From positions 1 through 47,116 of IMG/VR virus record IMGVR_UViG_3300021963_000208: DNA of 47,116 nucleotides. One strand, given 5' to 3'. Shown here one piece after another: positions 23,398 to 40,540 of this stretch; the stretch's first letter is position 1; each line of letters starts with the position of its first letter. The position numbers and the translations under genes were made by a program. This DNA comes from a virus. Under the pieces are notes generated by a model, which was not told where the DNA came from, made no database searches, and worked only from the letters and a program-made list of their open reading frames with translations.

Positions 23398-23422
23398 TTA
23401 ATAAGAATACAATTCTTATTAA
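23398..23422 (-). promoter_or_regulatory. 11-bp hairpin in the leader of the scaffold gene
   Basis: TTAATAAGAAT (23398-23408) and ATTCTTATTAA (23412-23422) form a perfect 11-bp inverted repeat with a 3-base loop. No T-run follows on the minus strand, so it is not a classical terminator. It lies about 29 bases before the scaffold start. It might stabilise the leader, serve as an RNase III site, or act as a DNA hairpin. N4 virion RNA polymerase recognises small hairpins with 3-base loops, so a link to the fusion polymerase is possible but unproven. Confidence 0.55.
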
Positions 23423-23473: not shown

Positions 23474-23490
23474 TGGGTTAATTTAACGGG
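23474..23490 (-). promoter_or_regulatory. 17-base promoter-like motif, copy 1
   Basis: On the plus strand this reads TGGGTTAATTTAACGGG, and an identical 17-base copy is at 40113-40129. Its core GTTAATTTAAC is a near-perfect palindrome. Here it is part of a larger inverted repeat, TGGGTTAA (23474-23481) and TTAACCCA (23497-23504), which includes the stop codon of the polymerase gene. It lies 105 bases upstream of the scaffold gene. It may be a promoter or operator for the capsid operon. Confidence 0.5.
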
Positions 23491-23496
23491 GTCTGG

Positions 23497-26400
23497 TTAA
23501 CCCACACCATACCATCCGTAATCATCTGAAAAACCTTTTGGAATTTCTTTTAAAATATCTTCTCTAAGCAAAATGTCGGTATCTTTCAAAAGTCTTCCAC
23601 CAATTCTTGACTTTCCAACAACTGGTATTAAACCTAATTCGATTGCTTCATTAAGGTACTTATCGTAAACCTTTTTTGGCAATCCCCTAGCCTTCATTTC
23701 ATCCAGAGTTTCTTTGATTACATTTCTTTCTAATGTTTTTGCATATATTTGTCTTAAAGCATTTCTAGCCTTAAGCATATCAGCAGCATTAGCAAAGAAC
23801 GCATCATGAATCGTAGATGTTGTGACGCCATTTTGCTTACCCCATAAATGAAAGCGTTTGACGATAACAGCATCATTAGAATGGTTACCATTAACAGCAT
23901 AGGCAGTCCTAGCTTTCGTAGGATCACCAATGTCATTAATTTTGCCAGACTTGTTGATTATCTGTTCCCACCAAGTTGCTTCGGTCTTTTGAGGCACTTG
24001 AAGAATATTTGTAAACCAATTTCCATTATTGTCTCTATACCTCAGACGCTCTTCAAATGTTTGCGTAAAGTTTTGTTCGATAGTTTTGCCATCAAAGTTA
24101 ACCCACGGAATATTTGTCCAGCTCTTCGGTAGCTTGTTAGCATAGAAAATTTCTAATTCGTTAATTGTCTTTAACTGAAGGAAGTCAACTTTCAGATACT
24201 TAGCACCAGTTCTTCTTGTCTCAGGTGCAGGTACACCATAGACAATTTGACTTAAAGTACTGTTAGGTTTCCAGAAACTGAATCTGCTCAATATCTTTTC
24301 ACTAACAGGTTGGCCTGGCTTTAAGCCAAGTAATTCACTAACACGATCTGGCAGTGTATAGCCTTTCTTCTTTGAGCCAATTACTTTTATTTTAGCAATT
24401 GTTTGCCAATCGAAATCTGCCTTAGATGGTTTGGCGTATGTCATATACTCGTTTGCAAGTCTACCGAAGTATCTTGTAAACTCTTTAAGTATAGGTACTT
24501 GTTCGCCAAGGTATTCACTCATAATTTGAGCTATAGCTTTAAAATCATTTGGTGTAACAACCTTGTCGTAATTATGTGATAACTTTTCTACAAGATCTTT
24601 TGTTTTAGGATCTAGGAAGTAAAGCTGTTCCATAATCTCATCACCAGGGTCTAAACCCTTGTTAAACACATCTTTAACATTTTCTCTTAGCACTCTAAGT
24701 TCTTCAGCTGTTTCAGGGTCTATCTTTTCGTACCTAGCAATTCTGGCACTAATCTCGTTCAAGACCGCATCTCGATCAGATGCCTTAACAACTAAAGTGT
24801 TTGCATCTTTTTCAAGAACTTTTGCCAGTTTGCCTTCAACACTAAAAATACCTGTACGCTCTCCAGCACCATAGAAAGTAACCATGTTCTGAGCTTTAGC
24901 GGCTTTTCTAAGATCTTTTTCGTTAAGACCAAACTTTTGATTCAAAGCCTTGAAACGAGGATCATTATAAGTAGCCGCTGCAATTTCATCATAGAGACGT
25001 TTCTTTTGAGTTGTGGGGATAACGTTACTAAGTTCTGCAAGTTGTTTATTTCTTGTTGTAAGAGCAATGATTTGTGCGCCAGACGAAGAAGCATCTTGTT
25101 CTAACGCCAATGCAATTTTATAGTCATTTAGCCTCCTTAAAGAAGCTTCAGAATAATCACCACCAAGATAGTTATCTATCTTTGCCATTTCAATTGCAAA
25201 TCTAAAGAACTTACCTTGCTCTTCACCATCAATATTTGCTAAGAGTTCTGATTCTAGGATTGCTCTAATGTCGTTAGGCTTTCCTCTAATCATATGATTT
25301 CCAATTTTAACTAATTCTGGACGCCATCTCTGAGCAATCTTTTGCCTTCCAGTAATAGTTAACGAATTAAATCTTCCTTCTAAGAAGTCGTTTAAACCAC
25401 CTAAGAAAGATCCAATCTGATCTTGTAAATCTTTAAATTCGTCTGGACTAAAGTTCTTAGCAACAGCAGTATTTAGAAATGGTCTAAAGGTTTCTCCACT
25501 CTGAGGGCTGATAAGTCCACGATCATAGATGCGAGCACGATGATCAACAAACGCGTGATTACTAAACGGCTTTTGTGAATTTCTAAGCCACTCCATAGCC
25601 TTGAAACGCTCATACGCATCTCCTCTAGATGCTATATACTTTCTGTAATTATTAAGATCATTGTAGAACTTTGCTTTACCTTTGTCATCTTCAAAATAAA
25701 GCAACTTGTTTACAAAGTCATAATAGTCTTCATCAATCTTATATTGAGATTGTGATGCCCAATTCAGTGCATCAACAAAATCCTTATCTACAAACTCTTC
25801 AGGGAAGTCGCTAAAGCTCGATGTAGAGGTTATTGGTATTCTTGTGTCTTCAAGACCAAGCGCACCACGATCAATAAAATATGTCTTATAACCTTCTCTA
25901 ACAAGTAGGCGATTCTTATCTGATGTTACAGCAACTCTAAGACCAAGATCTACTTTTCTAGTAAGCTTAGCATATTCTTGAATACGAGGGTCAGTTACTC
26001 TAAGATTATAAGCAATTGTATCATAGTAAGGCCCAAAGTAATTTCCACTCAACCTACTACGCATTCTTCTCTTTTGAACACCAAATGTTTCAATTTCAAA
26101 GAACTTACCAACGTTCTTACTTTCTAAAATCTTAGTACCTAATTTAAACCATGCATTTCTAGCACCATTCAAGTTTGCCAAGTTATACAGGTCTCTACCG
26201 AGAGATACAGCAAACTGATCTCTATCTGGCAAGTCAGCTAAACTAAGCCTATGAGCAAATCTTAAATAGAATTGATGTAAATCAGAATCACTTAGTCTGT
26301 TTCGAATAACTAATGGGATACTTGCATCAAATACTTCACGAAGCTCTCTAGCAATTTTGGGTGCTACAGTGTCTTCCCATTTGTTTTTCTTTGTGATATT

Positions 26401-28125
26401 TGATATAAAAGAATCATGTAATTCATCTAATTGAACTGGACCTAAAACTGGGTCAATGTAATTGTCCTGTAATAGGCGCTTCATTAGGTCAGTATCTTTG
26501 CGTAATTGAGTTTCAATTGCATCAGATACGTTCATTACATCAAATTTAATCTGGCTTTGTGCTACAGCTTTGAAGTTAGCCCAAGGCTCAGGATTCTTTC
26601 TATATCTGGTAAATACAATTCTAAGATTATCAACAACTGCTGCACGTTCATTTACGCTCATTCTTTCAGCCAGATTTTCATCCACTGATCGAATAAAGTC
26701 TTTGTCTCGTTGCAATAGCTCAGTGCTTTCGTCCAACAATCTAAGGTTATTAGATAATACAGCTGGATTTGGCTGATATAGTCTGATGTCTTCATAGCGT
26801 CCTGTAATTGGATTAAATTTCAATTGGTCTTCTCTAGGTGGAGAAGTCAGGACTCTATTCTTTGTAGCACGCTTTGTACCTAGTAGCATGCCACGATAAT
26901 TAGTCATTGAAAGAGTACCATTTAGTTCACCAGCTTGTAGTAAATAATAATCAATTAAAGTATTCTTAAGTTTTTGATTATCAACAAAATCGTCTGGCGT
27001 AGATGCACCTAATTGCATTGCATCTAACTTTTGTTTAGCAAGTGCAAACTTCCTAGTATCATTTGGTAATTCATATCCAGCATCTGTCATAGCACGAAGC
27101 TCTTTAATGCCGATTGAATTACCTTCAGGATTAGTAAATTTATCCAGAGTTAGCTGACCTGTATTAAACAGTTCAACTTTTTGATAATCACCAAGATGTC
27201 TTAACTGGACATCTTTAGGTTGTCTTAATAGCCATTCATTATAGCTCTCACGCATTGGCGTTTGACCATCATAGAATGCTATTTGCTTATCTGTTAAGTT
27301 TTGTAAGTTACGTCTACGAACTTCAGCAACACCTTCCAGCTTTGAAATATCGTCCCAGTTCTTAAAAACAGGAACTGTTGTAGAACGACAATTAAAGTGA
27401 GCCGGAGGCAAGTGCGCCGTGTCCCCAATGGGGTAGATAGTCCCGTCTCGGTGCGCACACAGAGGCGTGGTTCTGGAGTCTAGGACGGCTACATACTGCC
27501 ACCCCTGAAGGGCTTTCGAGTTCGCCTTGTAAACTTCTTGATCAGTTTGTGCGGTTACAGAAGTAATTGCAGTAACAACAAGAGCTTTCGATTGCATGCG
27601 AGTTATATTATGGACATTGCCTTTTCGAACTTCTAATGCAATTTGATCTACTGTTTTACCCTCTGAAATCCCTCTTCTGATAACAGCTTCAAGTCTTTTC
27701 TTTTCATTAATACTGACGCCTGCCCATCCTGCTGCAAGTGTCCTATTTTCAATTAAAGGTTTTTCTAGAACAATTTCTTCAGCAACTCTCTTTTGTGGTC
27801 TTTGTGTTCTCCATATTTGACCCATTGCTGTTTCAATATTTTGATACACATAAGAAACTTGATCTGAAACTAAATCTAGTAGAGATCGTTTGGTAATATT
27901 AAAAGTTTCTCTATAGGTTTTTGTTAGCTCTTTGTCAATTGCTTCTCTAAGTTTTTCAAAACCCTTTTGAGAGAGATTAGCTTCTTTGATAAGTTTATCA
28001 ACACGGACAGTATGACCGTCAATAACTAATTCAACCTTACCATTGACTCTTCTCTCATAAAGGCGGATCATTGCCGCCCTATCTATAGCTTTGTCATATA
28101 TTTGTGTATTAGCATTAACGGCCAT
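23497..28125 (-). CDS. MuF minor capsid protein fused to a single-subunit RNA polymerase (1542 aa)
   Basis: Residues about 1-260 form a MuF (SPP1 gp7/Mu gpF) minor-head domain with the C..H.DG motif (C223, CAHRDGTIYPIGD) and H-FNCRS (C246). The remainder contains the ordered motifs of T7-like and N4 virion RNA polymerases. These are VDHRARIY (D861, the T/DxxGR region, R->A in the last but one position), motif A LEQDASSSGAQ (D1011), motif B RKAAKAQNMVTFYGAG (R1073, K1077, Y1085) and motif C TIHDAF (H1440, D1441). R-K-Y spacing is exactly that of T7 R627, K631, Y639, and D1011/D1441 correspond to catalytic D537/D812. Motif B and C are further apart (about 364 residues) than in T7, as also in N4. 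It follows the portal gene and precedes the scaffold, the normal MuF position. I infer a polymerase packaged with the head and ejected with DNA. Activity and packaging are untested. Confidence 0.92.
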   Translation of the reverse strand: MAVNANTQIYDKAIDRAAMIRLYERRVNGKVELVIDGHTVRVDKLIKEANLSQKGFEKLREAIDKELTKTYRETFNITKRSLLDLVSDQVSYVYQNIETAMGQIWRTQRPQKRVAEEIVLEKPLIENRTLAAGWAGVSINEKKRLEAVIRRGISEGKTVDQIALEVRKGNVHNITRMQSKALVVTAITSVTAQTDQEVYKANSKALQGWQYVAVLDSRTTPLCAHRDGTIYPIGDTAHLPPAHFNCRSTTVPVFKNWDDISKLEGVAEVRRRNLQNLTDKQIAFYDGQTPMRESYNEWLLRQPKDVQLRHLGDYQKVELFNTGQLTLDKFTNPEGNSIGIKELRAMTDAGYELPNDTRKFALAKQKLDAMQLGASTPDDFVDNQKLKNTLIDYYLLQAGELNGTLSMTNYRGMLLGTKRATKNRVLTSPPREDQLKFNPITGRYEDIRLYQPNPAVLSNNLRLLDESTELLQRDKDFIRSVDENLAERMSVNERAAVVDNLRIVFTRYRKNPEPWANFKAVAQSQIKFDVMNVSDAIETQLRKDTDLMKRLLQDNYIDPVLGPVQLDELHDSFISNITKKNKWEDTVAPKIARELREVFDASIPLVIRNRLSDSDLHQFYLRFAHRLSLADLPDRDQFAVSLGRDLYNLANLNGARNAWFKLGTKILESKNVGKFFEIETFGVQKRRMRSRLSGNYFGPYYDTIAYNLRVTDPRIQEYAKLTRKVDLGLRVAVTSDKNRLLVREGYKTYFIDRGALGLEDTRIPITSTSSFSDFPEEFVDKDFVDALNWASQSQYKIDEDYYDFVNKLLYFEDDKGKAKFYNDLNNYRKYIASRGDAYERFKAMEWLRNSQKPFSNHAFVDHRARIYDRGLISPQSGETFRPFLNTAVAKNFSPDEFKDLQDQIGSFLGGLNDFLEGRFNSLTITGRQKIAQRWRPELVKIGNHMIRGKPNDIRAILESELLANIDGEEQGKFFRFAIEMAKIDNYLGGDYSEASLRRLNDYKIALALEQDASSSGAQIIALTTRNKQLAELSNVIPTTQKKRLYDEIAAATYNDPRFKALNQKFGLNEKDLRKAAKAQNMVTFYGAGERTGIFSVEGKLAKVLEKDANTLVVKASDRDAVLNEISARIARYEKIDPETAEELRVLRENVKDVFNKGLDPGDEIMEQLYFLDPKTKDLVEKLSHNYDKVVTPNDFKAIAQIMSEYLGEQVPILKEFTRYFGRLANEYMTYAKPSKADFDWQTIAKIKVIGSKKKGYTLPDRVSELLGLKPGQPVSEKILSRFSFWKPNSTLSQIVYGVPAPETRRTGAKYLKVDFLQLKTINELEIFYANKLPKSWTNIPWVNFDGKTIEQNFTQTFEERLRYRDNNGNWFTNILQVPQKTEATWWEQIINKSGKINDIGDPTKARTAYAVNGNHSNDAVIVKRFHLWGKQNGVTTSTIHDAFFANAADMLKARNALRQIYAKTLERNVIKETLDEMKARGLPKKVYDKYLNEAIELGLIPVVGKSRIGGRLLKDTDILLREDILKEIPKGFSDDYGWYGVG

Positions 28126-28134
28126 ACTTTATCC

Positions 28135-28263
28135 TCATTTGTTTTTCCTACCAAGTGGCTTAGATGCTTCTTGAGCACTTTTGGCCATATCCTTGTTTTT
28201 CCAAATATTCCTATTCTCATTCATGTCTTTAATTCTGTTACCAACAGAGTTTATTTTAGACAT
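28135..28263 (-). CDS. Small basic protein (42 aa)
   Basis: It starts with ATG at 28263 (MSKINSVGNRIKDMNENRN), 8 bases inside the end of the portal gene, with a weak CAGGGA upstream. It ends 9 bases before the MuF-polymerase start. The product is very rich in Lys, Asn and Arg and ends KPLGRKNK, likely disordered or nucleic-acid-binding. Its codon pattern continues that of its neighbours. No family was recognised. Confidence 0.5.
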   Translation of the reverse strand: MSKINSVGNRIKDMNENRNIWKNKDMAKSAQEASKPLGRKNK

Positions 28264-29842
28264 TCCCTGATTGGCCAGGTTCTTGGTTTTGTAACTGGTT
28301 AGCATAGTCTTCAGTTCCTTTTGGCAACAGCATAGCATCATTGTTAATTTCAGTCTGGCCAGCTTGATCGTCATAATCAGGCGGAATCAAGTCGTTTTGC
28401 TTAAGCATTTCAAGCCACACAGATCTTGGAATTAATCCTTGTTGATACCATTCAGTAGCAAGTCTAAGCCAATCAGCACCTAATGGGATTGGATTAAAAT
28501 CAGCTGACAAAGAAAAATCGATATCAGCAGCTTTTAATTGAAGATCATAACGCCAATTAAGCATGAAACAGATAACTTGTTTCATTATATTGCTTATTTT
28601 GTTGTTAAGAGTACCTAGTTGTGCCGTTTGAGCAGCATTCCTGATTTCAAGAGCAACACCAGACTGAGCAGTTTCAGGCGTTAACATACGAATGCCCATC
28701 TTTGCCATTTCTTCAATAGAAGCAGCAATTGCGCGATCCATATCTTGTAATGCAGCTGTAGGTGTGTCTAAAATACCTGCAGTATCGCCTTGACGTAATC
28801 TAATCCAAGTTCCTAAACCACCACTAACAATTTCTTCAAAATCATCATCTGACATATCAGATGCAATATATGGCGTATAAGTAGATGCGCCATATAACAA
28901 GTGATTCCTTCTGCTCATTTTATTGTACAAGGAAACTTCTTTGTCAATAATTGGAGAAAGCATCGGCTCAATTGCATCAATACTGCCGTTTAGAGGCCAA
29001 GCAGGGATCATCTTAAGACGTTCGCCATTTGCCTGAATATTTTGAATAGTATTCTTAAGTACAAAAGCTGCTTTATGTGCTCCTGGCTGTTTCAGTATTT
29101 GACCTGCAACAACAGGCACATTAGTGGCCTTGTCTTCTCTTTTGTAAATTCTAATTTGATAATATCCGCTATCATCTAATTCATGAACCCATACTGTTTC
29201 AATCATATCAGGATGGAATTCATTTGAAACATATTCTTCCTCGTAACCTCTGACAATTACTCGACTAAGAACGTTTCTACCAAGTGTGTCTGTCTTAATT
29301 CTCCAATTAATGATAGACTCAGCTTGCATTAAAATAGGGTATGGCTTATATTTAGCTAATTCTTCTCTTGTTAAAGCTTCAACATTAGTTATTTGAGGGT
29401 AATCTACAAAAATCCAAGCACGGCTTGTTTGCACTTCTTCCCATAATGCAGAATCAAGGAAAGATGCTAAAGGAGAGTCGTCTCTGCCAAACTCATTCAT
29501 AATCCAGTTCTGAGCATCTGCAGGGATGTTTTCAGGTAGATTAAGAACAGGTTGTTTTCTGAGAAGGCCTCCTACTAGCATCTTTGAAAACTGAGCTACA
29601 ATTCCTGGCAATTCGGCTTCCGCTTTATAGAAGTCATATTGCCTTTGATCCATAGAGGGTGAGAATGGGATTAGTAAGTTGTTAAAGCGCAATACATCTA
29701 CCGTACTGTCAAATTCTTTAACATAACGCTCCCCACTACAGACAGCTCTGCTTTTATTCCATAAAGGTTTTAAAGATTCAAAAGAAGCGTTAGGATCTGC
29801 AACAGTTTTGACTGAAGCTTGGGCAGCGTTCACTACAACCAT
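28256..29842 (-). CDS. Portal protein, DUF4055 type (528 aa)
   Basis: The start is at ATG 29842 with GAGGGG upstream. The N-terminus (about 20-90) includes LKPLWNKSRAVCSGERYVKEF and FYKAEAELPGIVAQFSKMLVGGLLRKQP, and the middle has WAFVDYP-like RAWIFVDYPQ; together these follow the DUF4055 portal family. A later segment (about 330-420) with ISGGLGTWIRLRQGD and helices reading MTPETAQSGVALEIRNAAQ is a typical wing/stem part. Twelve copies should form the DNA entry vertex, and the next gene (the MuF fusion) would bind near it. Confidence 0.85.
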   Translation of the reverse strand: MVVVNAAQASVKTVADPNASFESLKPLWNKSRAVCSGERYVKEFDSTVDVLRFNNLLIPFSPSMDQRQYDFYKAEAELPGIVAQFSKMLVGGLLRKQPVLNLPENIPADAQNWIMNEFGRDDSPLASFLDSALWEEVQTSRAWIFVDYPQITNVEALTREELAKYKPYPILMQAESIINWRIKTDTLGRNVLSRVIVRGYEEEYVSNEFHPDMIETVWVHELDDSGYYQIRIYKREDKATNVPVVAGQILKQPGAHKAAFVLKNTIQNIQANGERLKMIPAWPLNGSIDAIEPMLSPIIDKEVSLYNKMSRRNHLLYGASTYTPYIASDMSDDDFEEIVSGGLGTWIRLRQGDTAGILDTPTAALQDMDRAIAASIEEMAKMGIRMLTPETAQSGVALEIRNAAQTAQLGTLNNKISNIMKQVICFMLNWRYDLQLKAADIDFSLSADFNPIPLGADWLRLATEWYQQGLIPRSVWLEMLKQNDLIPPDYDDQAGQTEINNDAMLLPKGTEDYANQLQNQEPGQSGNV

Positions 29843-29843
29843 A

Positions 29844-30110
29844 TCAACCCCTCAATTTCTGATTGAACTCGGCGATAGAACCAACAAATTTTTCACGAGA
29901 ATTAGCATTGTAAGCTTCAATACCGTCTTCCGTAGGTTTGATTTGCCAGTTTGCAGGAACTTTGTCAATAAAAGCACCTTCAACATTAGCCTTAGGCTGT
30001 TCTTCAACTTGAGGCTGTTCTGTTTCAGGTTGCATAACTTCAGTTGTTTGTTCAACTTTAATCTCATCAGAGATTTCAGTTTGTGTTTTAGGATTGATTT
30101 TGATTTCCAT
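29844..30110 (-). CDS. Hypothetical acidic protein (88 aa)
   Basis: The product starts MEIKINPKTQTEISDE and is dominated by Glu, Gln, Val and Pro (about residues 15-45). It ends in a small ordered region with WQIKPTEDGIEAYNANSREKFVGSI. AAGGAATATTT upstream supports the start. It ends one base before the portal gene. Proteins with this ending, a short domain that recalls the tail of phage structural accessories, commonly precede the portal. The role is unknown. Confidence 0.65.
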   Translation of the reverse strand: MEIKINPKTQTEISDEIKVEQTTEVMQPETEQPQVEEQPKANVEGAFIDKVPANWQIKPTEDGIEAYNANSREKFVGSIAEFNQKLRG

Positions 30111-30131
30111 AAATATTCCTTAATAATAAAA

Positions 30132-30155
30132 GATCAGGAGCCAAAGCCTTTGATC
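30132..30155 (-). terminator. Rho-independent terminator
   Basis: On the minus strand GATCAAAGGC...TCCTGATC folds with a 5-bp outer stem and a short inner GGC/GCT stem, followed by TTTTATTATT. It comes right after the 76-aa gene and before the 88-aa gene, so it probably ends the fibre-region transcript before the portal operon. Confidence 0.5.
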
Positions 30156-30157
30156 GT

Positions 30158-30388
30158 TTACTCATCGGCTGGCAGTGGCGTATTTCCTTTTTCAAGCCAT
30201 TTTAAATATTCTGCAAACTCCTCATTAGCAGGATTGTTTAAAAGAACTTTACTATCTGAAATACGTAATACATATTGGTAATAACCTAAATTCACTAATT
30301 TATACATCAAGATTTCTACACTAAAGTCTATAACAAGACTAGTAGCATAACTACCTTGCGGTAGACTCAATAATGCTCCATAAAACAC
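30158..30388 (-). CDS. Small hypothetical protein (76 aa), GTG start
   Basis: The frame opens after a stop and starts with GTG at 30388 (encoded as M). The C-terminal half (NPANEEFAEYLKWLEKGNTPLPADE) has the EYLKWLxxGNTPLPAD form commonly seen in phage tail-associated or fibre-assembly proteins. The N-terminal part is hydrophobic (YATSLVIDFSVEILMYKLV). No clear ribosome-binding site was found, so the true start, or a frameshift joining it to the upstream reading frame, remains open. Confidence 0.5.
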   Translation of the reverse strand: MFYGALLSLPQGSYATSLVIDFSVEILMYKLVNLGYYQYVLRISDSKVLLNNPANEEFAEYLKWLEKGNTPLPADE

Positions 30389-30426
30389 CAGCCATATCTT
30401 GGAGAACCAACAACACTACCATTATT

Positions 30427-30543
30427 TCATGTATAGCTACCAGAACCGTATACGTTTCTGTTTACGCTAATCGAATGTTCGGCAATTACAATACTCGGAG
30501 GTTGTACTGCAGATGTTACTATAGGCTTAAAAATTAAAAACAT
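30427..30543 (-). CDS. Very small tail-type protein (38 aa), uncertain
   Basis: The frame from ATG 30543 to TGA 30427 encodes MFLIFKPIVTSAVQPPSIVIAE... ending in VYGSGSYT, with composition like a short tail-decoration peptide. No ribosome-binding site is visible. The same frame continues coding-like beyond the TGA (NNGSVVGSPRYGWCF) to a second TGA at 30367, so it may be a decaying remnant of a longer protein. Confidence 0.35.
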   Translation of the reverse strand: MFLIFKPIVTSAVQPPSIVIAEHSISVNRNVYGSGSYT

Positions 30544-30560
30544 ATTTTGTTTATAAGAAT

Positions 30561-30583
30561 AAAAGTGGCACAAGGCCGCTTTT
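30561..30583 (-). terminator. Bidirectional terminator
   Basis: AAAAGTGGC and GCCGCTTTT pair around a short loop, with one internal mismatch, giving A-tract and T-tract on opposite sides. On the minus strand it follows the 61-aa gene region and ends in CTTTTATT. It marks the left edge of the GC-rich block. Confidence 0.6.
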
Positions 30584-30627
30584 AGGGTTTAGACTGCGGG
30601 AATCTTCTTGTGTGGGCCAATAAATCA

Positions 30628-30813
30628 TTAACGCTTTAAGCCAGATAAAATCGTGTCATACGCAAACTGCGCCCAAGGACTACGTTCAGGGCGTACATTA
30701 ACGCTATCAGGCAAGGCAGGGGCTTTGTCTCGAAGGTGGCGCGGGCCACTTCCTTGTCGAGTTGATTTACTATAAAAGCGGGTTGATGACCGCTGTCGAC
30801 GTTTCCTTGTCAA
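30628..30813 (-). CDS. Small basic protein (61 aa), TTG start
   Basis: The frame opens with TTG at 30813, preceded by GGAG about eight bases upstream, and overlaps the end of the next upstream gene by 44 bases. The product is Arg- and Ser-rich (TRKRRQRSSTRFYSK) and ends in SPWAQFAYDTILSGLKR. The ending looks like part of a conserved phage protein, but no family is claimed. The codon choice is GC-rich, matching the neighbouring block and not the rest of the window. Confidence 0.4.
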   Translation of the reverse strand: MTRKRRQRSSTRFYSKSTRQGSGPRHLRDKAPALPDSVNVRPERSPWAQFAYDTILSGLKR

Positions 30814-31006
30814 TTACAAGAACTCCATCACAGGCAATGTTCCAGTCATCACTCAGTTGCTCTTTCTCGCTAATTGAAGGTACGTTCAGCTTGAAGTGCT
30901 TAAACAGGTATTCCTGTTTGTCAACAAAGACTCGCCAGACGTGATCGGGCGTACCTTTTCCTGGCTGGCCCCGGCTCTTGTTAAAACGGATGGAGATGTG
31001 GCTCAT
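30770..31006 (-). CDS. Hypothetical protein (78 aa) coupled to the oxygenase gene
   Basis: The start is ATG at 31006 (MSHISIRFNKSRGQPGKG), overlapping the oxygenase stop as ATGA. The product has an ordered central part (DHVWRVFVDKQEYLFKHFKLNVPS) and a C-terminal GVLVIDKETSTAVINP strand pattern. Reading it in longer form from 31114 is possible but unsupported. Its DNA is GC-rich, as in the whole 30.6-33.0 kb block. Small proteins directly after the phage 2OG-Fe(II) oxygenase are common in marine and freshwater phages, from memory. Confidence 0.6.
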   Translation of the reverse strand: MSHISIRFNKSRGQPGKGTPDHVWRVFVDKQEYLFKHFKLNVPSISEKEQLSDDWNIACDGVLVIDKETSTAVINPLL

Positions 31007-31644: not shown

Positions 31645-31647
31645 GGT

Positions 31648-31998: not shown

Positions 31999-32016
31999 AA
32001 AAAATCCTTTCAATCT

Positions 32017-33012: not shown

Positions 33013-33030
33013 TTATAGTCCTCTCGTTGA

Positions 33031-33483
33031 TTAGGCCACAGTAACTTTCCAAGTGATCGTCAAGGTATCCAGAGCACCTTTATTAATCACATCGAACTTT
33101 GTACGGCAAAGCATATCACCAGCAGAAGCAGCATTGAAAATACCAGCTTCAGTGATAGCAGCGGTTGCTGTACCAGGATTGAATGTAGCAACGTACTGAA
33201 CGGAGTCATTAGCCACAGTAGTAGTGACAATAGTCGTAGACGTCAGAGCAACACGAGCAGATTCGGTCTGAAGTGCAGTCTGAGCATCAGCAGCAGCGTT
33301 AGTACCAGTACCAACCGCCATGTGCGACATCACGTTCTTAGCAACACCAACCATACGGCTAGCAATGTAAGCCAGACCAGAGTCAACAACTAAGTTCTTC
33401 TCTTGCTGCAGCTTAACATTACCATTCTCATCGGTCAGAACGAAGCTAACAAGGCCAGTAGCCTTAATTTTATCGTTGATCAT
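33031..33483 (-). CDS. Tail/fibre structural protein (150 aa)
   Basis: The product begins MINDKIKATGLVSFVLTDENGNV and contains LVVDSGLAYIASRMVGVAKNVMSHMAVGTGT, followed by beta strands and ITEAGIFNAASAGDMLCRTKFDVINKG. This pattern is frequent in small phage fibre or tail proteins. It starts near the stop of the 1102-aa gene (gap 12 bases) and is followed by the YadA-like fibre gene. I infer a fibre-base or adapter role. Confidence 0.65.
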   Translation of the reverse strand: MINDKIKATGLVSFVLTDENGNVKLQQEKNLVVDSGLAYIASRMVGVAKNVMSHMAVGTGTNAAADAQTALQTESARVALTSTTIVTTTVANDSVQYVATFNPGTATAAITEAGIFNAASAGDMLCRTKFDVINKGALDTLTITWKVTVA

Positions 33484-33495
33484 TTTTAAATTTCC

Positions 33496-36400
33496 TTAAA
33501 TTGTGTAATTTGAACCAACAAATCCAGTCTGAACGTAAGTACTACTTAGGTAGTCTTGTTTATTCGCCCATCTGTATTCGCTAAATGTTGTCGTTTCAGA
33601 CAACGCCTTTGTAAATGTCTGTAGATATGTGTCAGAAGCAATAGCTATCTCAGATAAACTCTTAGATGCACTAACTGCAATATTCTCAATGCTTGTTACT
33701 GTTTCTACAATAGACTTTGCATTTAAGAATGAATTTACATCGTTTGTTGCTACTGATTCATCAACAGATCTGTTATATGAGGTTGCACTAGAGAACAAAT
33801 CAGATAACGTAGACGTGTCTAACAAGCCCTTACCGACTTGAGCTGTCTGGTCGTCATCAATGTTTGCATTTCCGTAAAAATCGTCAGTGGTCTGAACAAC
33901 ATCAGATAAGTTATAAGTGAAATTATAGGTTATTTGCTCGGACACAGTCGCAAGGTCTTCAATGCCTTTAATTGGCACAAAAGAGATAACCTCATTACCT
34001 ATACTTGTAGTACTTGACAGTGCTTTTGATGCGCTAAATGCGATTTGATCTGCTAAATTTGTTGCGCCTGCAACAAAGTCAGGTTGAACGTAATCCTTCT
34101 CTTCAATAAACACAACACTTACCTGTCGGCTTATTTCATCAGAAATACTTCCATTGTCTGCTAAGAGTTTGAAACCTTCAAAGCTTAATACATCATCTAG
34201 ATTGATAGAATCAACAAAGCCCTTTGCTAACGTATAAAATAACAAATCAGTATTTTCTACTAAATCTAAGAAAGGTTTATAGAATGTAATTTCAAATAAT
34301 ACAGAGTCAGATGTTGTAGTGTCATCTTTAACAACCTTGTCAAAGAATGCATATTGATCATCGTCAATATTAGCTTCTCCAAGAACGTCATCTGTTGTAA
34401 CAATCGTGTCTTGCAACACAGACGATACATTAAATGCCAGCTGATCTGAGTTTGTAGATGTGTCTTCAATACCTTTTGTAGGCGATAAGTAAGCAACATC
34501 AGAGTTCGTGGTAGTTTCTCTGTATTCAGGTGCTACAATGAAATTTGCGACATCTGATGCAGGCACTGACTCAATATAAGCCGGTGCAATTAAGAAACTA
34601 TTTATATCTGAGTTATTAATACTATCTGAAAGCGGTCTTTCTGCTGAAAACGCCACTTGATCAGATGCAATCGCTGAGTCTTCCTTTACAATACCTAATG
34701 AGTAGCTTAACAAATCAGAAACAACACTGTTATCAATGACTGCTTTTGATAAATGCAAGCTAATTTGGTCAGGTATGCTAGTAAGACTTTCAAAGACTCG
34801 ATTATAAATTACAACTCGAACAAAATCTTCTACAGTAATATTAAGTTCTGTAAATACTTTGTCAACACCACTAGATAATTGATCAGAGGCATATAAAGAT
34901 GCCACGTAATCAGGCAACACAAAATGCTCAGTAAAGTAGCTATTGTCAATAATAACTTTTTGAGTTACGTTTGACACAACTTCTGAGACTTGTGCTACAT
35001 CAAGCTTTGTTGATTCAATCAAATTAGATACAATGTCGGTAATGACGTTAGAGTCATCAAAGTATCTAATCCAACTTATCGTAGTTGTAAACAAGTCTGT
35101 AACAGGAATTATATCTCTAACAACCTTCTCAAAGAACGCATATTGATCATCATCAATGTTTGCTTCACCAAGGACATCGTCTGTAGTAAGAATTATATCT
35201 TCAAATACCGGTTTAATATGGAATACAATTTGCTCTGCAGCTAATGAAGTATCTAATAGTGTCTTTTGAGCAACTTTAGAGATTTCTTCAGAAAGTGTAG
35301 ATGGGTCTACAATGCCTTTGCCGATTAATTTATAATCAACATCAGTAAATGTAGAGGTTTCTCTATACTCAGGCGCTACAAGAAGACTTGCAACATCTGA
35401 AGCAGGCACTGACTCAACATAAGCCGGTGCAATTAAGAAACTGTTTACATCTGTGTTGTTGATAGAATCAACAAGGCCTTTTACTAATGTATAAAATAGA
35501 TATTCAGTATTCTGAACAGAGTCCACAAAGTCTCTGTAGAATGCAATTGCAAATGAAATAGAATCAGATGTGCTAAAGTCATCTTTAACAACTTTCTCAA
35601 AGAACGCATATTGATCATCGTCAATATTAGCTTCTCCGAATACGTCGTCAGTTGTAACAATAATATCTGTCAATACAGAAGAAACATTAAAAGCAAATTT
35701 GTCTTGTGCAAACAAACCTCTAGTATAGTTGTAATACCCTTCTAAATTTAAAACATAGTCAGCGGTGGCATATGGACCTTCTGTAAGGATCCTATTAAAC
35801 TCTGCAATCCTGCTAACTGTATCAGACGTAATAGGAGTATCTTCAACACCTTTTGTAGGTGACAATGTAACTGTATCAGAATTTGTAAATGTTTCTATGT
35901 ATTCAGGCGAAACAAGCAAGCTTGCTACATCTGATGCAGGTACAGTTTCTACATAAACAGGTGCTATTAAGAAACTATTTATATCTGAATTAGAAATATT
36001 GTCAGTTAAGGGTTTTTCTGAAGAGATTGCAATACTATCAGTTGTAATTAAGCTGTCTGTTTTGACTATGCCTAAAAAATAGCTTAGTAAATCAGACATC
36101 ACACTAGTATCAAACTTAACTGATTCAACAACATTAGATACAATGTCATTAACTACATTAAAGTCATCAAAATACCTCAGTCGACTTATTTCAGTTATAA
36201 ATAAGTCAGATACAGGTACAACATCTCTTACTACCTTTTCAAAGAACGCATATTGATCATCATCAATGTTAGCTTCGCCTAGAACGTCATCTGTAGTTAA
36301 GATTGTGTCTAACAGAATTGTTTTAATGTCAAAAACAATTTGTTCAGTTGCTGTAGATGTGTCTAATAGAGCGCTTTGAATTAGTTTTGAAATTTGTTCT

Positions 36401-36804
36401 GAAAGAATCGAAGTCTCAAATAAGCCTTTGCCTACTAATTTAGAATTAACATCTGAAAAGGTTGCTGTCTCTTCAAACAGCTTAGCAAATAGCTTAGTAA
36501 AGTAATCTGTAAGACTTAAATTCTCTGAAAATGCTTTTCTAGTTTCAGCGCTAAATTGATCTAGCGCCTGAATTAAGTGTTGATTGAACTTAAATAGTGT
36601 AGGTTCAGGAATTACTTCCTCGCCATAGCCATCTAATTCAACACGGAAACTAGACTCTTTTTGAACTACGATACCTAAAGTATCAACTTCGTTTAAGTCA
36701 GCTACTAGTGTAGGCGTATTAATTTCAGTATTTAATTCTTTTACTTTAAGTTCAGCAATTAGCGGTACTGAAGCAGTGACTTTAATTACTTTTTCGTCTG
36801 ACAT
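33496..36804 (-). CDS. Repeat-rich putative fibre or tail protein (1102 aa)
   Basis: The product is acidic, with many Ser, Asp, Val and Ile, and organised in imperfect repeats of about 30-45 residues that include the patterns TTDDVLGEANIDDDQYAFFEKVV, SFLIAPxYVExVPASDVAS and LSYFLGIVKxDS. The first pattern occurs four times in full and once degenerate. There is no signal peptide or membrane segment. The start lies 13 bases from the previous gene and the gene leads the fibre operon. It is probably an elongated virion protein, but no domain is recognised. Confidence 0.7.
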   Translation of the reverse strand: MSDEKVIKVTASVPLIAELKVKELNTEINTPTLVADLNEVDTLGIVVQKESSFRVELDGYGEEVIPEPTLFKFNQHLIQALDQFSAETRKAFSENLSLTDYFTKLFAKLFEETATFSDVNSKLVGKGLFETSILSEQISKLIQSALLDTSTATEQIVFDIKTILLDTILTTDDVLGEANIDDDQYAFFEKVVRDVVPVSDLFITEISRLRYFDDFNVVNDIVSNVVESVKFDTSVMSDLLSYFLGIVKTDSLITTDSIAISSEKPLTDNISNSDINSFLIAPVYVETVPASDVASLLVSPEYIETFTNSDTVTLSPTKGVEDTPITSDTVSRIAEFNRILTEGPYATADYVLNLEGYYNYTRGLFAQDKFAFNVSSVLTDIIVTTDDVFGEANIDDDQYAFFEKVVKDDFSTSDSISFAIAFYRDFVDSVQNTEYLFYTLVKGLVDSINNTDVNSFLIAPAYVESVPASDVASLLVAPEYRETSTFTDVDYKLIGKGIVDPSTLSEEISKVAQKTLLDTSLAAEQIVFHIKPVFEDIILTTDDVLGEANIDDDQYAFFEKVVRDIIPVTDLFTTTISWIRYFDDSNVITDIVSNLIESTKLDVAQVSEVVSNVTQKVIIDNSYFTEHFVLPDYVASLYASDQLSSGVDKVFTELNITVEDFVRVVIYNRVFESLTSIPDQISLHLSKAVIDNSVVSDLLSYSLGIVKEDSAIASDQVAFSAERPLSDSINNSDINSFLIAPAYIESVPASDVANFIVAPEYRETTTNSDVAYLSPTKGIEDTSTNSDQLAFNVSSVLQDTIVTTDDVLGEANIDDDQYAFFDKVVKDDTTTSDSVLFEITFYKPFLDLVENTDLLFYTLAKGFVDSINLDDVLSFEGFKLLADNGSISDEISRQVSVVFIEEKDYVQPDFVAGATNLADQIAFSASKALSSTTSIGNEVISFVPIKGIEDLATVSEQITYNFTYNLSDVVQTTDDFYGNANIDDDQTAQVGKGLLDTSTLSDLFSSATSYNRSVDESVATNDVNSFLNAKSIVETVTSIENIAVSASKSLSEIAIASDTYLQTFTKALSETTTFSEYRWANKQDYLSSTYVQTGFVGSNYTI
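34340..36280 (-). repeat. Tandem/dispersed repeats inside the 1102-aa gene
   Basis: A DNA block including GCATATTGATCATC recurs near 34346, 35128, 35608 and 36248. Each copy encodes the IDDDQYAFF(E/D)KVV segment. Intervals of about 480-780 bases indicate duplication of larger units with divergence between them. Confidence 0.8.
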
Positions 36805-36817
36805 AATAAGCTCCTAA

Positions 36818-37444
36818 TTAACCATCAGGAACTACGTCAGTAGGACTGAAAAGTATTTCTACCATACCTCTAATAGGTTTCCATGTTCGTCTAAAGACTG
36901 CATCTTGTGGTTCTGTAACACGCATTTCGAAGAATCCATAAACAGGAAAACTAACGATAGGTGATACAGCCCATCCAGAACCCATAGTACCTGGGAACTG
37001 TAAATAGACTTTATTTAGGGTAGTCTCTTCCCACAAAGAATCAAGATCAGGCGTTATTGCGCTAGTTCTTGCTGCACCTACCAGAAGTTTATAATACTTA
37101 TTCCCGTAGGCTACAACTTCTTCTTTGTTATATGCTTGTTGTGCATCCCAATTACCACGGTACGTAGGAATTCTAACCGTTAAGTTTAAGTTAATACCAT
37201 TAGGCTGGATAGTAATTGGCTTTTCTTCTTGAAAGGCCACATTAGCTGCTTCAACCACAACTGCCTCATAAGTATACTTAGATGCAGGGTGTGCAGGTAA
37301 CCCATTAACAGTAATTGGAAAGTTTTCAATAAAATTTAGGACAATAGGGAACTCTAGTTGTTCACCTTTAACAATCGACCATAGTACGCTACCAGAGTCA
37401 CTGTTTAGATCTTCCGTAATGTCCGTTAATCTAGATCTAGCCAT
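36818..37444 (-). CDS. Structural protein with carbohydrate-binding-like module (208 aa)
   Basis: Residues 1-95 form an N-terminal beta-rich domain (ITVNGLPAHPASKYTYEAVVVE). About residues 110-135 read YRGNWDAQQAYNKEEVVAY, the usual opening of a chitin/cellulose-binding module of CBM5/12 type (W and Y residues). The C-terminus has FPVYGFFEMRVTEPQ and RPIRGMVEILF-like segments. It is followed by the 1102-aa gene, whose start lies 13 bases after its stop. I infer a fibre or baseplate protein that may touch glycans. Confidence 0.6.
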   Translation of the reverse strand: MARSRLTDITEDLNSDSGSVLWSIVKGEQLEFPIVLNFIENFPITVNGLPAHPASKYTYEAVVVEAANVAFQEEKPITIQPNGINLNLTVRIPTYRGNWDAQQAYNKEEVVAYGNKYYKLLVGAARTSAITPDLDSLWEETTLNKVYLQFPGTMGSGWAVSPIVSFPVYGFFEMRVTEPQDAVFRRTWKPIRGMVEILFSPTDVVPDG

Positions 37445-37453
37445 TCTGACTCC

Positions 37454-37804
37454 TTAATGTTTGTCAGCCTTCTTGTCTAGTTTCTCATCTATTTTGTCAA
37501 GTTTTGCAAAGAGCGTTTCAATGCTCTTATGAAACTCTTCCTTAGTAACATAGTGGCTAGCCAGTACAACTTCAAGATTTTCTAATTTGTCAAGACGCTT
37601 CATAATAGTATCACCTACTTTGTTCACATCGTCTTTCTTGGCATACTCGCCTGCGATGAGAACCTCAATTTGAGAAAGTTTTGATAATAATGCTTTTTCA
37701 GCCTTTTGCAAGTCTTTTATGCTAAGCCATACGTTTTTAAGCCACCATCCACCTAGAAAAGAACAAAGACCAAGAAGTATGTTGAACATATCTTGGTATG
37801 ACAC
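37454..37804 (-). CDS. Membrane-anchored coiled-coil protein (116 aa), holin-like possibility
   Basis: The preferred start is GTG at 37804 with GGAGG six bases upstream (GTG TCA TAC CAA); a TTG start at 37828 is weaker. The N-terminus has a hydrophobic segment (FNILLGLCSFLGGWWLKNVWL), then a long charged coiled coil (about 30-116) ending in KLDKIDEKLDKKADKH. Such proteins are annotated as holin-like or as i-spanin-like in phages. No adjacent lysozyme is present, so a lysis role is only possible. Confidence 0.55.
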   Translation of the reverse strand: MSYQDMFNILLGLCSFLGGWWLKNVWLSIKDLQKAEKALLSKLSQIEVLIAGEYAKKDDVNKVGDTIMKRLDKLENLEVVLASHYVTKEEFHKSIETLFAKLDKIDEKLDKKADKH

Positions 37805-37985
37805 CAATAACCTCCGTTCTTTTGCCAAGGATCTGTGTTAGCATCCCTGGGTTTTCAATTAAATTGAAAATAAACGTGTATTTATTACACTTACAGTCGT
37901 CTTTCAGCTCTTCAACAAGCTGACTATAATCACCCTTTGGAGGCGCTCTACAAAGTTTATTTTCAACACTATTGTTGCTAGTCAC
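37737..37985 (-). CDS. Small hypothetical protein (82 aa), overlapping
   Basis: Starting at 37985 with MTSNNSVENKLCRAPPKGDYSQ, the frame is open for 82 codons and overlaps the next gene by 68 bases in another frame. The first 55 residues (SQLVEELKDDCKCNKYTFIFNL) look coding, while the C-terminal overlap may be forced. No start site or family was recognised, and it might be a short spanin-type or unrelated protein. Confidence 0.35.
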   Translation of the reverse strand: MTSNNSVENKLCRAPPKGDYSQLVEELKDDCKCNKYTFIFNLIENPGMLTQILGKRTEVIGVIPRYVQHTSWSLFFSRWMVA

Positions 37986-38044
37986 ATCTATATTAGACGT
38001 ATTACCGAATATTGGTGTTTACATTAACAGGATTTGCTACACAT

Positions 38045-39391
38045 TTAGAAGTTAAAACCTCTAACAGCTCTCTTCGTTCCCAGATTGACAGGAAACATAT
38101 ACTCTACACCATAACGAATACCGTCTGAGAAATGTTCTATGCCTTCTGATTTATCAATCACGGCAGTATCAGGGTTTCCATCAACCCATTTAGTACGTTC
38201 TAAAGATGTAATCACACCTGTACATCTCGGATGGACGTATAAATCTATATCTCCAGCTGCATTTAATAGTTTCCTATTTACTGCTGCAACTGAATCTACA
38301 ATTGGAGGAGCCTTACTATGAGCCAAGCAGCGAATGCCATGAGACTCGAGTATAGAGAAATCAGTACGCCCAACAGGAGCAGAGGATTTACGCGCTCTAC
38401 CTGATGGATCAGGATAAGCATAAATCTTATGTCCTTGAAAACGGGTCTTAATGGCAACAGCCAAAGTTTCCGTGTCAGGGTGTCCTTTAAACTCTTCCAA
38501 GATATGAATCTGCTTGCCTCTAATAGCCATAGCAGAAGAGCACTGGAGACCAACGTTAAAGTCAATATTAATATGTACGTCTTCACCACGTTCCCCATTT
38601 TCAGCTTCTGCAAAGTCTGGTAGTTCGGAGGTTACATGTTTCTTTCTGTCAAAACAGTAGAACACATTGTTGCCAGATTCTGCAAAAGATGCTAAATATT
38701 CTGAAGCAAATTCAATAGGATCTAGGTTGTGTCGAATTCTTTCAATTTCGTTAACATCAAGAAATGGAGACATCGTATAATCATAATGATATGATTTCCA
38801 ATTCTGATCCAGTTCCTGATAATTGAATAATTCATGAAAATAATTATAACCTTTTGGAGTACTAATAATCAAAGCACGACCAGGGCTTCTAGCACCATAA
38901 GTCAATGCTCTTTGATTAGACCAACGAGTTATAATCGTAGGCTGAATAACACCTTGCCATGCTTCTTTAGGGCTAATGCCTTTTCGACAAGATGAGACCT
39001 CATCCCACACAACAAAATAAGCACCTTTACCACGCATACGTTCGACTGCTTCATACGATAGCAATCTAAGTTCTACGTTGTTAGGAAATATAAATCGACC
39101 TAAGTCTCTAGAAGATCTAATAGCATAGTCTTCCATACCTAAATCATAGTTGATCAGAGGATAATAAATATCTGTTACTTGATCATAAGTTGGAGCAATA
39201 ATGTACACAATCTTGTTTGGCACTCGAACGTCTAATTCAAGAAGCTCAAAGACAGCTGTTACACCAGCAACACCTGCCATATAAGACTTACCCCAACCAC
39301 GAGAACAACAAACAACAGAAAATCTGTTTGTTTTATTAACAAATAAATCTTCATAGACCTCTGATTGGCCTTCATGAAGATTAATACTCAT
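38045..39391 (-). CDS. terL: Terminase large subunit (448 aa)
   Basis: Numbered from ATG 39391 (MSINLHEG), the Walker A-like motif SRGWGKS is at residues 30-36 and Walker B VVWDE at 127-131. A nuclease part follows, with DFNVG (INIDFNVG), YPDPSGR and a later DGIRYGVEYMF that supply the acidic residues of the RNase-H-like fold. The start overlaps the upstream stop by 11 bases (ATGAGTATTAA) and has GAAGG upstream; an in-frame TTG at 39409 is less likely. It pumps phage DNA through the portal and cuts it. Confidence 0.92.
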   Translation of the reverse strand: MSINLHEGQSEVYEDLFVNKTNRFSVVCCSRGWGKSYMAGVAGVTAVFELLELDVRVPNKIVYIIAPTYDQVTDIYYPLINYDLGMEDYAIRSSRDLGRFIFPNNVELRLLSYEAVERMRGKGAYFVVWDEVSSCRKGISPKEAWQGVIQPTIITRWSNQRALTYGARSPGRALIISTPKGYNYFHELFNYQELDQNWKSYHYDYTMSPFLDVNEIERIRHNLDPIEFASEYLASFAESGNNVFYCFDRKKHVTSELPDFAEAENGERGEDVHINIDFNVGLQCSSAMAIRGKQIHILEEFKGHPDTETLAVAIKTRFQGHKIYAYPDPSGRARKSSAPVGRTDFSILESHGIRCLAHSKAPPIVDSVAAVNRKLLNAAGDIDLYVHPRCTGVITSLERTKWVDGNPDTAVIDKSEGIEHFSDGIRYGVEYMFPVNLGTKRAVRGFNF

Positions 39392-39830
39392 CCTCGTCAC
39401 CTTCATCAAACTCTAATTGATCAGGTTGTTGATCATTAGCAATATATACTTCACCTTTCTTTGTAAGATTTACAATTAAAGGCATTGGTTTCTTCTCTTC
39501 AACTATTGTAGTCTCAGGCACACGACCGTAACCATATCGAAGAAGTTTATCTCCAATCATGTTTAACTTATCGTACAGTGCATGATGTACTTCAGCACGA
39601 TATGATCTAGGCTTACCAGTAGCAGTAAGCTCCACAATCACACCATCTCTAATCTTTTCTTGACGCAATATCTCTTCTTGTAACCTTCTGTAATTAGCTA
39701 CAAGTTCACCAATTGGGTCAAAGCCAAGCTGTTTCAATCTTGTCACAGATCGTTTACCACCAGCTTGATATTGTGGTATTCCAGGAGTGCGACCTCCTTT
39801 GATTGGAGGCTGCATAATATCATCAGCCAT
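39381..39830 (-). CDS. terS: Terminase small subunit (149 aa)
   Basis: The start has AAAGGACAACT upstream. The product has an N-terminal basic/Pro region (PPIKGGRTPGIPQYQAGGKRS) and a helical middle (QLGFDPIGELVANYRRLQEEILRQEK), typical of small terminases with helix-turn-helix-like DNA-binding and oligomerisation. The C-terminus is very acidic (LEFDEGDEDEY). Its gene precedes and overlaps terL. The non-coding region just upstream holds a large inverted repeat that might be a packaging site. Confidence 0.75.
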   Translation of the reverse strand: MADDIMQPPIKGGRTPGIPQYQAGGKRSVTRLKQLGFDPIGELVANYRRLQEEILRQEKIRDGVIVELTATGKPRSYRAEVHHALYDKLNMIGDKLLRYGYGRVPETTIVEEKKPMPLIVNLTKKGEVYIANDQQPDQLEFDEGDEDEY

Positions 39831-39867
39831 AGTTGTCCTTTATTTCTGTTTGATCTAAGGTAAGCGT

Positions 39868-39975
39868 TCACACCAAGTCCCTTTCAATTGCTTTCGAAAA
39901 CTCTTTCCAAATCAAGCACTTAGCGTGACCACTCCAAAGTCCATCGCAAGTGCCTCTTCGCCTTAATAAATGCAT
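39868..39975 (-). CDS. Possible small protein (35 aa)
   Basis: Between the inverted repeat and terS, an ATG frame (MHLLRRRGTCDGLWSGHAKC...) of 35 codons ends KEFSKAIERDLV. It has Cys10, His18 and Cys20 and coding-like composition, perhaps a zinc site, but no ribosome-binding site is visible. It may be a small real gene or the 3' remnant of one. Confidence 0.4.
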   Translation of the reverse strand: MHLLRRRGTCDGLWSGHAKCLIWKEFSKAIERDLV

Positions 39976-39981
39976 TTTAAA

Positions 39982-40058
39982 GACGTTCTATATAGGAATA
40001 GTATTAATTTAGTTATTAAGATGAATAACTAACTACTATAACAACTATATAGAACGTC
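39982..40058. repeat. Nested inverted repeat upstream of the terminase genes
   Basis: GACGTTCTATATAG (39982-39995) and CTATATAGAACGTC (40045-40058) are a perfect 14-bp inverted repeat with 49 bases between. Inside, TTAGTTATT (40009-40017) and AATAACTAA (40024-40032) form a 9-bp stem with a 6-base loop. A DNA cruciform or a folded RNA is possible. The region is AT-rich and has no T-run that would make it a terminator. Confidence 0.75.
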
Positions 40059-40112
40059 TATATTAGCGTTATTAAGGACATTAAAGGGTATTATTTCTCA
40101 GGAGAACGTCCT

Positions 40113-40129
40113 TGGGTTAATTTAACGGG
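40113..40129 (-). promoter_or_regulatory. 17-base promoter-like motif, copy 2
   Basis: The same 17 bases as at 23474-23490 (TGGGTTAATTTAACGGG on the plus strand). Here it is flanked by a 6-bp repeat GAGAAC/GTTCTC (40102-40107, 40129-40134). It lies about 283 bases upstream of terS. The copy lies in non-coding DNA between the small-gene region and the terminase operon. Confidence 0.5.
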
Positions 40130-40532: not shown

Positions 40533-40540
40533 ATTAAATC

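Follow-up and report, generated by a model that had tools for sequence, protein, structure and literature searches.

A 17-base word, TGGGTTAATTTAACGGG, occurs twice in a 47,116-nucleotide stretch of viral DNA (positions 1 to 47,116 of the incomplete IMG/VR virus record IMGVR_UViG_3300021963_000208, hereafter the window, G000), and its likely function is analyzed here together with the RNA polymerases (RNAPs) of the window and its relatives. The two exact copies lie at 23474-23490 and 40113-40129, have the same orientation, and are both intergenic. All large open reading frames (ORFs) of the window run along the minus strand, which makes CCCGTTAAATTAACCCA the working orientation of the word; as read on this gene strand it is named M1. 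Copy 1 is positioned 6 bases from the stop codon of ORF 28125-23497, which encodes a MuF-RNAP fusion protein, and 105 bases upstream of the ORF for a head scaffolding protein (22689..23369, minus strand; phrog_206, E 1e-11), the first gene behind it. The major head protein gene is located at 21481..22665 on the minus strand (phrog_247, E 7e-22). Copy 2 lies 283 bases upstream of ORF 39830-39381 (minus strand), the first gene behind it, whose 149-aa product matched no Pfam or PHROG family and is a putative small terminase subunit as judged by position; its homologues precede the terminase in related contigs. The large terminase subunit gene follows (38045..39409, minus strand; PF03237, E 3e-4, just short of the curated cut-off), and this adjacency is kept in relatives.

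No third copy with up to 3 mismatches was found when both strands of the window were scanned, and the second-best gene-strand 16-mer in the window differs from M1 at 5 positions. In 100 dinucleotide shuffles the mean number of matches with up to 3 mismatches was 0.09, and at least two matches were obtained in 1 of the 100. The initial annotation of this DNA had reported two identical, non-coding copies in one orientation, with no other full copy, ahead of the scaffold/capsid and terminase genes, and had considered this beyond chance, all of which is borne out by these counts and distances. It had also described the word as palindromic, which is correct for an 11-base core, GTTAA-A-TTAAC, to which the inverted symmetry is confined; the CCC ends are not inverted. 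Sigma-70-type promoters were rejected as candidates because they are not enriched (47 sites compared with 51.8 expected in shuffles, window 22000-41500). No close DNA relatives of the window were found among named phages.

M1 is conserved in position and orientation in related phages

When IMG/VR was scanned for exact copies of the 17-mer, 83 stretches were obtained; L001 and L002, being the window itself, were left out of the comparison that follows. In most stretches, M1 starts 9-13 bases past the last matched residue of the fusion protein, with the scaffold and capsid genes behind it, so that the place of copy 1 (23474..23490, minus strand) is the same in dozens of related contigs. In L027, L054, L064, L094, and L096, M1 is found before terminase homologues, the place of copy 2 (40113..40129, minus strand), which is also occupied at position 379 of G003, the closest relative of the window. 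The remaining exact-word stretches showed similarity to none of the ten window proteins that served as queries. Many M1 records were chosen for the exact word, most of the large records described below included; the further copies in these large records, their strand bias, and their flanks were not part of that choice. Among 14 loci picked by protein similarity that contain the fusion C terminus, M1 (up to 3 mismatches) is present at the fusion stop codon in 10. Across 13 large records (G001-G012 and EBPR siphovirus 1), the same threshold gave 52 gene-strand copies compared with 2 on the opposite strand, with 2 matches for a reversed-pattern control, and the large relatives contain 3-5 copies each, located before terminase, capsid, lysis, replication, and accessory blocks. 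The motif search of genome and relatives proposed in the initial annotation thus shows that M1 recurs with a strong strand bias. An unbiased search for repeated words in G003 ranked M1 first and a further motif, M2, second, and a contig from a metagenome-assembled genome (MAG) found by protein similarity (genome_contigs), which serves as an independent test, has five M1 copies on the gene strand and one weaker copy on the opposite strand.

The M1 profile was built from 195 sites, of which 92 have distinct flanks and 89 of those no more than 2 mismatches. In these 89 sites the sole strong signal is a block from position -1 to 16 consisting of A, any base, and CCCGTTANNTTAACCC, which gives the gene-strand consensus A-N-CCCGTT[A/G]NNTTAACCC, then mostly A or T. 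The A at -1, which lies outside the search word, is present in 82 of 89 sites; positions 7-9 vary slightly, and position 17 is mostly A or T. Any conclusion from the A/T at position 17 was dropped because most records were chosen with A there. Placement was counted over 104 distinct sites, a number that differs from the profile because more loci were included and sites were removed in a different order. Only 2 of the 104 lie inside a gene-strand ORF of at least 100 aa, compared with 1656 of 2080 random positions (80%), and the many random copies within genes that the initial annotation had named as evidence against a signal are not seen. A downstream ORF is present for 100 sites, and for 92 of these it lies within 400 bases (median 92.5 bases). 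The shortest leader, in L149, is 31 bases long and still has a ribosome-binding site, so transcription from M1 would have to start in or just behind the word.

In two relatives M1 is altered in concert, to xAGTTRAATTAACCC at three sites in G016 and to CTGTAAAATTAACCC at two sites in G014, with M2 intact in both. Concerted change of sites within a genome is what is expected for one trans-acting reader, and it is seen here in a few cases. M1 thus has the general properties of a phage polymerase promoter, as it is repeated, intergenic, held in one orientation to the genes, and situated where gene blocks start. Its conservation in relatives, together with its strand bias, position, and concerted variation there, indicates that M1 is almost certainly a phage promoter, as the initial annotation had suggested for the two late operons; copy 1 is the predicted promoter for scaffold and capsid and copy 2 that for ORF 39830-39381 and the large terminase.

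The MuF-RNAP fusion and a second, free polymerase

The fusion protein (23497..28125, minus strand; 1542 aa) is comprised of an N-terminal MuF head-morphogenesis domain (phrog_241, E 4e-66; PF04233, E 6e-14) and a C-terminal RNAP domain (phrog_414, E 2e-21; PF00940, E 2e-11), and both Pfam families were matched in 17 of 17 aligned fusion homologues. A structure model covering the last 983 residues has a mean predicted local distance difference test (pLDDT) score of 68.7 and a predicted template modeling (pTM) score of 0.70. Comparison of the model with solved structures gave matches to T7 RNAP (8dh5_E; Z 23.2, root mean square deviation (rmsd) 6.1, 514 aligned), human mitochondrial RNAP (7pzr; Z 20.5, rmsd 4.0, 501 aligned), and the mini-virion RNAP (mini-vRNAP) of phage N4 (3c46_A; Z 15.8, rmsd 4.5, 482 aligned), indicating that the C-terminal part, as modeled, is of the T7-type fold. 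Searching the sequence profile against solved structures gave a weak match to T7 RNAP (E 0.056) and none to N4 vRNAP, which was matched in the structural search; a weak Protein Data Bank match (1uly, E 6e-4) is located in the middle of the fusion. Invariant residues of the fusion presumably correspond to catalytic motifs A, B, and C of T7 RNAP. As suggested by its MuF domain, the fusion is most likely packaged in the head and injected with the DNA, and we propose that it is a virion polymerase.

A search with PF00940 gave a match in 23 of 23 records. A free-standing T7-like polymerase is present in 19 of these (G001-G012, G015, G019, G020, G021, G024, G025, and DSS3_VP1), including every genome-size IMG/VR relative. 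The four records with the fusion polymerase only (the window, G016, G018, and EBPR siphovirus 1) are all incomplete. Where intact, the free polymerase has about 750-780 aa, and a profile of 14 free polymerases matched T7 RNAP with an E-value of 3.5e-74. Its gene is interrupted or split into several frames in G009, G010, and G015 and is cut by the record end in G024. The fusion gene of EBPR siphovirus 1 is likewise interrupted, with an HNH endonuclease gene annotated within it, which makes mobile introns likely.

M2 and the genome plan

The second word of the unbiased search in G003, TATCTTATATGATA, is part of M2, the full form of which is GCG[G/C/T]AAAANNN[A/G]GTATCTTATATGA[T/A]A. M2 was matched 47 times, each time on the gene strand, in 20 of the 24 records; the control gave no match, and M2 was not found in the window, G018, EBPR siphovirus 1, or DSS3_VP1. 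Eighteen records have both M2 and the free polymerase; in 17 of them the motif lies upstream of the gene, at a distance of up to about 7 kb, and the 18th (G024) starts inside the gene. In the MAG contig three M2 copies (40834, 42950, and 43366) lie upstream of the free polymerase gene at 44585-46834. The 15-mer of M2 alone, which occurs in at least 120 stretches, was rejected as a marker. Of 81 sites in the 80 loci examined, 19 have the upstream GCG part; the locus matches the free polymerase for 9 of the 81, and in 9 of 9 that gene is downstream on the same strand. The two motifs are divided, with M2 upstream of the free RNAP and M1 before replication, structural, and lysis blocks; one accessory block of G003 has both.

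G003 is 68.5 kb in length, and its head protein is 91% identical to that of the window. The window is co-linear with it in reversed orientation, the aligned pieces covering window 11169-47014 and the last one matching G003:64455. M1 sites of G003 are located at 379 (terminase), 19601 (scaffold/capsid), 42065 (lysozyme gene), 48792 (replication block), and 63340 (accessory block). The replication block encodes a Gp2.5-like single-stranded DNA-binding protein, a family A DNA polymerase, a 5'-3' exonuclease, a primase/helicase, and a ribonucleotide reductase. Of the five sites, two fall within the shared part and correspond to those of the window, the sites at 42065 and 48792 are in a region with no window match, and the M1 and M2 sites at 63340-63425 map about 1.1 kb past the right end of the window. 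Two M1 copies are thus the number expected for this stretch.

Proposed assignment of the motifs to the two polymerases

The initial annotation had offered the fusion polymerase as a possible reader of M1, which is probably wrong given the second, free T7-like polymerase of the relatives, which M1 follows better. G015 has five M2 sites and no M1. The free polymerase of G015 shares 41-48% identity with that of G003, compared with 51-80% for the other IMG/VR records (single pieces of interrupted genes included), and that of DSS3_VP1, where both motifs are absent and a different word is repeated in 11 copies, is 35% identical. The C-terminal segment of the G015 fusion, by comparison, is 60% identical to that of the window, in line with the M1-containing records L062 (59%) and L082 (61%). 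M1 is lost or altered in concert in phages where M2 persists, and it tracks divergence of the free polymerase better than that of the fusion. The genome order, with M2 before the early block that includes the free polymerase and M1 before later blocks, leads to the same assignment, and we consider it probable that M1 is read by the free-standing T7-like polymerase. The assignment of M2 to the fusion is made with less support than that of M1 to the free enzyme.

According to this scheme, the fusion would be packaged in the head, enter the cell with the DNA, and open infection from M2, which would drive early genes including that of the free polymerase. The free polymerase (about 750 aa, encoded outside the window) would then read M1 ahead of the middle and late blocks, namely terminase, scaffold/capsid, lysis, replication, and one accessory block, each in the direction of the genes. 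We infer promoter activity, the pairing of motifs with polymerases, packaging and injection, timing, start base, and strength. On balance we favor the combined reading of a widespread clade of tailed phages in which an injected MuF-fusion polymerase reads M2 first, a free polymerase reads M1, and the capsid leaders contain tandem YGU-triloop hairpins.

A role for the fusion itself at M1, by which newly made fusion would drive late genes before being packaged, perhaps through an N4-like hairpin GTTA-NNT-TAAC, draws on the location of M1 directly behind the fusion gene in most contigs and on the ability of the core to form a stem of 4 pairs with a 3-base loop, the loop positions being the most variable. 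An injected polymerase reading M1 would, however, begin on structural genes, and G015 is without M1 despite having a fusion no more distant than those of L062 and L082. The fusion of G014 is 70-73% identical to that of the window, yet M1 is altered there at 3 positions. The hairpin shows no compensatory stem changes, and N4 promoters, in the available part of their description, have a GC-rich heptamer at -11 (PMC4496689). We regard this role as improbable. The symmetry of the core could also reflect an operator, the other candidate named in the initial annotation, at which a phage regulator would act on nearby promoters. The whole conserved block is asymmetric, with CCC at both ends and A at -1, the orientation of M1 to the genes is constant, no other conserved candidate promoter is located within 25 bases upstream or 45 bases downstream, and the sigma-70-like sites are not enriched. 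An operator is thus not needed to explain M1 and is very doubtful.

An equally remote prospect is that M1 serves as a signal for RNA processing, termination, or replication where one transcription block gives way to the next, an idea that suits copy 1, which is situated between two genes of the same orientation with hairpins behind it. M1 heads gene blocks, with some leaders of just 31-45 bases, and has no T-run of its own, and 3-5 spaced copies are a poor fit to a single origin or packaging site. For M2, the host polymerase could be the reader, leaving the fusion with another role, as M2 contains TATGAT, with TTGCGG some 16 bases upstream of it in part of the copies. The resemblance to a -35 element is poor and inconstant, though, and 16 near-invariant bases across very divergent phages exceed the needs of a sigma-70 promoter, which makes host transcription of M2 unlikely, if clearly less so than the preceding possibilities.

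Several observations weigh against the proposed reading of M1. Because records were chosen by the exact word, the apparent invariance of positions 1-17 is inflated. No clear M1 was found behind the fusion in L008, L011, L014, and L016 of the 14 protein-picked loci; in L011 and L014 only a 6-mismatch likeness is present there, and in L008 and L016 none. M1 has no conserved G run or TATA-like stretch of the kind typical of T7-class promoters, and the proposed reading leaves its palindromic core unexplained. The pairing of M1 with the free polymerase draws on the order of the genomes and on few divergent cases, and the free polymerases of G014 and G016 lie outside the records examined. In G015, no convincing substitute for M1, in the form of a repeated non-coding word on one strand outside the early region, was found; a first word search returned only words clustered in the early region and near 88.6 kb. 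The early region of G015 (107.8 kb) contains, at 52-57 kb, a repeated block in which the hairpin GAGAGAC-AATTCC-GTCTCTC is followed by a TTAGGAGTATTATC-like word, in 5-6 copies.

Comparison with known phage transcription systems

Promoters of the T7 class have a TATA-like stretch at -4 to -1 and a G run from +1. The free polymerase resembles T7 RNAP, as shown by the profile match above, and the replication block is T7-like. In contrast, M1, which contains AATTAACCC, has neither a conserved TATA-like stretch nor a starting G run behind it, and M1 is therefore not filed as a T7-class promoter; a 3' end of that kind is seen in the repeated word of DSS3_VP1 described below. AATTAACCC presumably also starts the T3 promoter, a lead on which we do not rely.

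The roseophages DSS3_VP1 and DSS3_PM1 (Naomviridae in the record) both encode a full-length MuF-RNAP fusion, 29-30% identical, and DSS3_VP1 has a free T7-like RNAP besides. A word, TAGGKTRCGTTAAAGARGGG, is repeated 11 times in DSS3_VP1 (L100) and 13 times in DSS3_PM1 (L369), all forward, with no match for the control. In DSS3_VP1, 8 of the 11 copies lie outside annotated genes and 3 in short hypothetical genes. TAGGKTRCGTTAAAGARGGG is a predicted promoter in both phages but differs from M1, with which it shares only CGTTAAA, in having a G-rich, T7-class-like end; as a word it was not found in searches of open-licence PubMed Central (PMC) papers.

By plan, the closest described system is that of Thermus phage P23-45, which likewise has two polymerases, one of them a fusion with a virion protein and the other free, and two motifs; the available part of that report describes a tape-measure-fused virion RNAP reading an AT-rich motif before the first genes, the free polymerase gene among them, and a free RNAP reading another motif for later genes (PMC10770324). 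The sequence features of such a cascade, a virion-protein-fused RNAP, a second free RNAP, and two motifs split between early and later genes, are all present here. The P23-45 enzymes are two-barrel (cellular-type) RNAPs carried by the tape-measure protein, whereas the present enzymes are T7-type, single-subunit RNAPs with a MuF head protein as the carrier, and activity and start sites were measured for P23-45 while the present reading comes from sequence (PMC10770324). In phage N4, as far as the accessible text covers it, a T7-family virion RNAP also opens infection and a second phage polymerase follows, although that enzyme, RNAPII, is a heterodimer and the second enzyme here is one chain close to T7 RNAP (PMC4496689). 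The vRNAP promoters of N4 are GC-rich hairpins centered at -11 in the same text, whereas M2 has no such hairpin and the GTTA/TAAC arms of M1 are AT-rich and, as noted, lack compensatory change, so M1 was rejected as an N4-style hairpin promoter (PMC4496689).

Delivery of an enzyme on a MuF domain has a parallel in MuF polyvalent proteins, in which the enzyme carried by the head domain is presumed to reach the host cell, as proposed here; among the fusions to other enzymes listed in the available part of that study a MuF-RNAP fusion is not included, and N4-like virion RNAPs are said there to be confined to N4-like phages (PMC5512222). No report of the M1 or M2 words or of a MuF-RNAP fusion was found in search listings of open-licence PMC papers, a scope that leaves subscription papers and preprints mostly outside. 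Within this scope, if the scheme is correct, delivery of a single-subunit polymerase in the form of a MuF head fusion would be described here for the first time, together with both promoter codes as deduced from sequence alone. Polymerase delivery by a virion protein, known from N4 and P23-45, would then have arisen for a T7-type enzyme as well, with a MuF head protein as the carrier. The scheme provides a concrete candidate promoter code for a large group of uncultured phages, with two predicted polymerase-promoter pairs, and orthogonal pairs of this kind are useful tools. As DSS3_VP1 and DSS3_PM1 carry a distant version, the idea is open to test in cultured phages.

Leader hairpins and other features of the window

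Tandem hairpins with YGT triloops are present before the scaffold gene at window 23422-23382 and in the leaders behind the fusion gene in relatives. In the window, the leader behind M1 copy 1 contains hairpin 1, TTAATAAGAAT-TGT-ATTCTTATTAA (23398..23422, minus strand), and hairpin 2, TGAGT-CGT-ACTCA (23382..23394, minus strand), the latter beside the ribosome-binding site of the scaffold gene. In 44 distinct leaders, stems of at least 5 pairs with 3-base loops have TGT 61 times and CGT 7 times, the next commonest loop occurring 4 times. Pairing was counted in the 32 of these 44 leaders that contain both hairpins (L354, without hairpin 1, was dropped); pairs 1-4 of stem 1 are paired in 32 of 32, with pair 3 in four forms (GC, AT, TA, and CG), and hairpin 2 abuts the ribosome-binding site. 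The hairpins persist where no clear M1 is seen, with two at other spacing in L008 and both in L011, and a similar hairpin, GTAAGT-TGT-ACTTAC, is found in DSS3_VP1. An Rfam search of the window matched no family besides tRNA. The capsid-leader hairpins look like an RNA element for control or protection of the capsid mRNA. The terminase leader behind M1 copy 2 contains the hairpin ATATAGA-CGT-TCTATAT (40047..40063, minus strand), with the same hairpin at G003:446, and this YGT hairpin perhaps serves the same control.

An ORF of 1102 aa (window 33496-36804) matched no Pfam family and only marginally a PHROG, and has partial likeness to sequences near the terminase in L027, L064, and L094. Five tRNA genes (Met, Leu, Asn, Arg, and Thr) are located on the gene strand at window 44017-46832.

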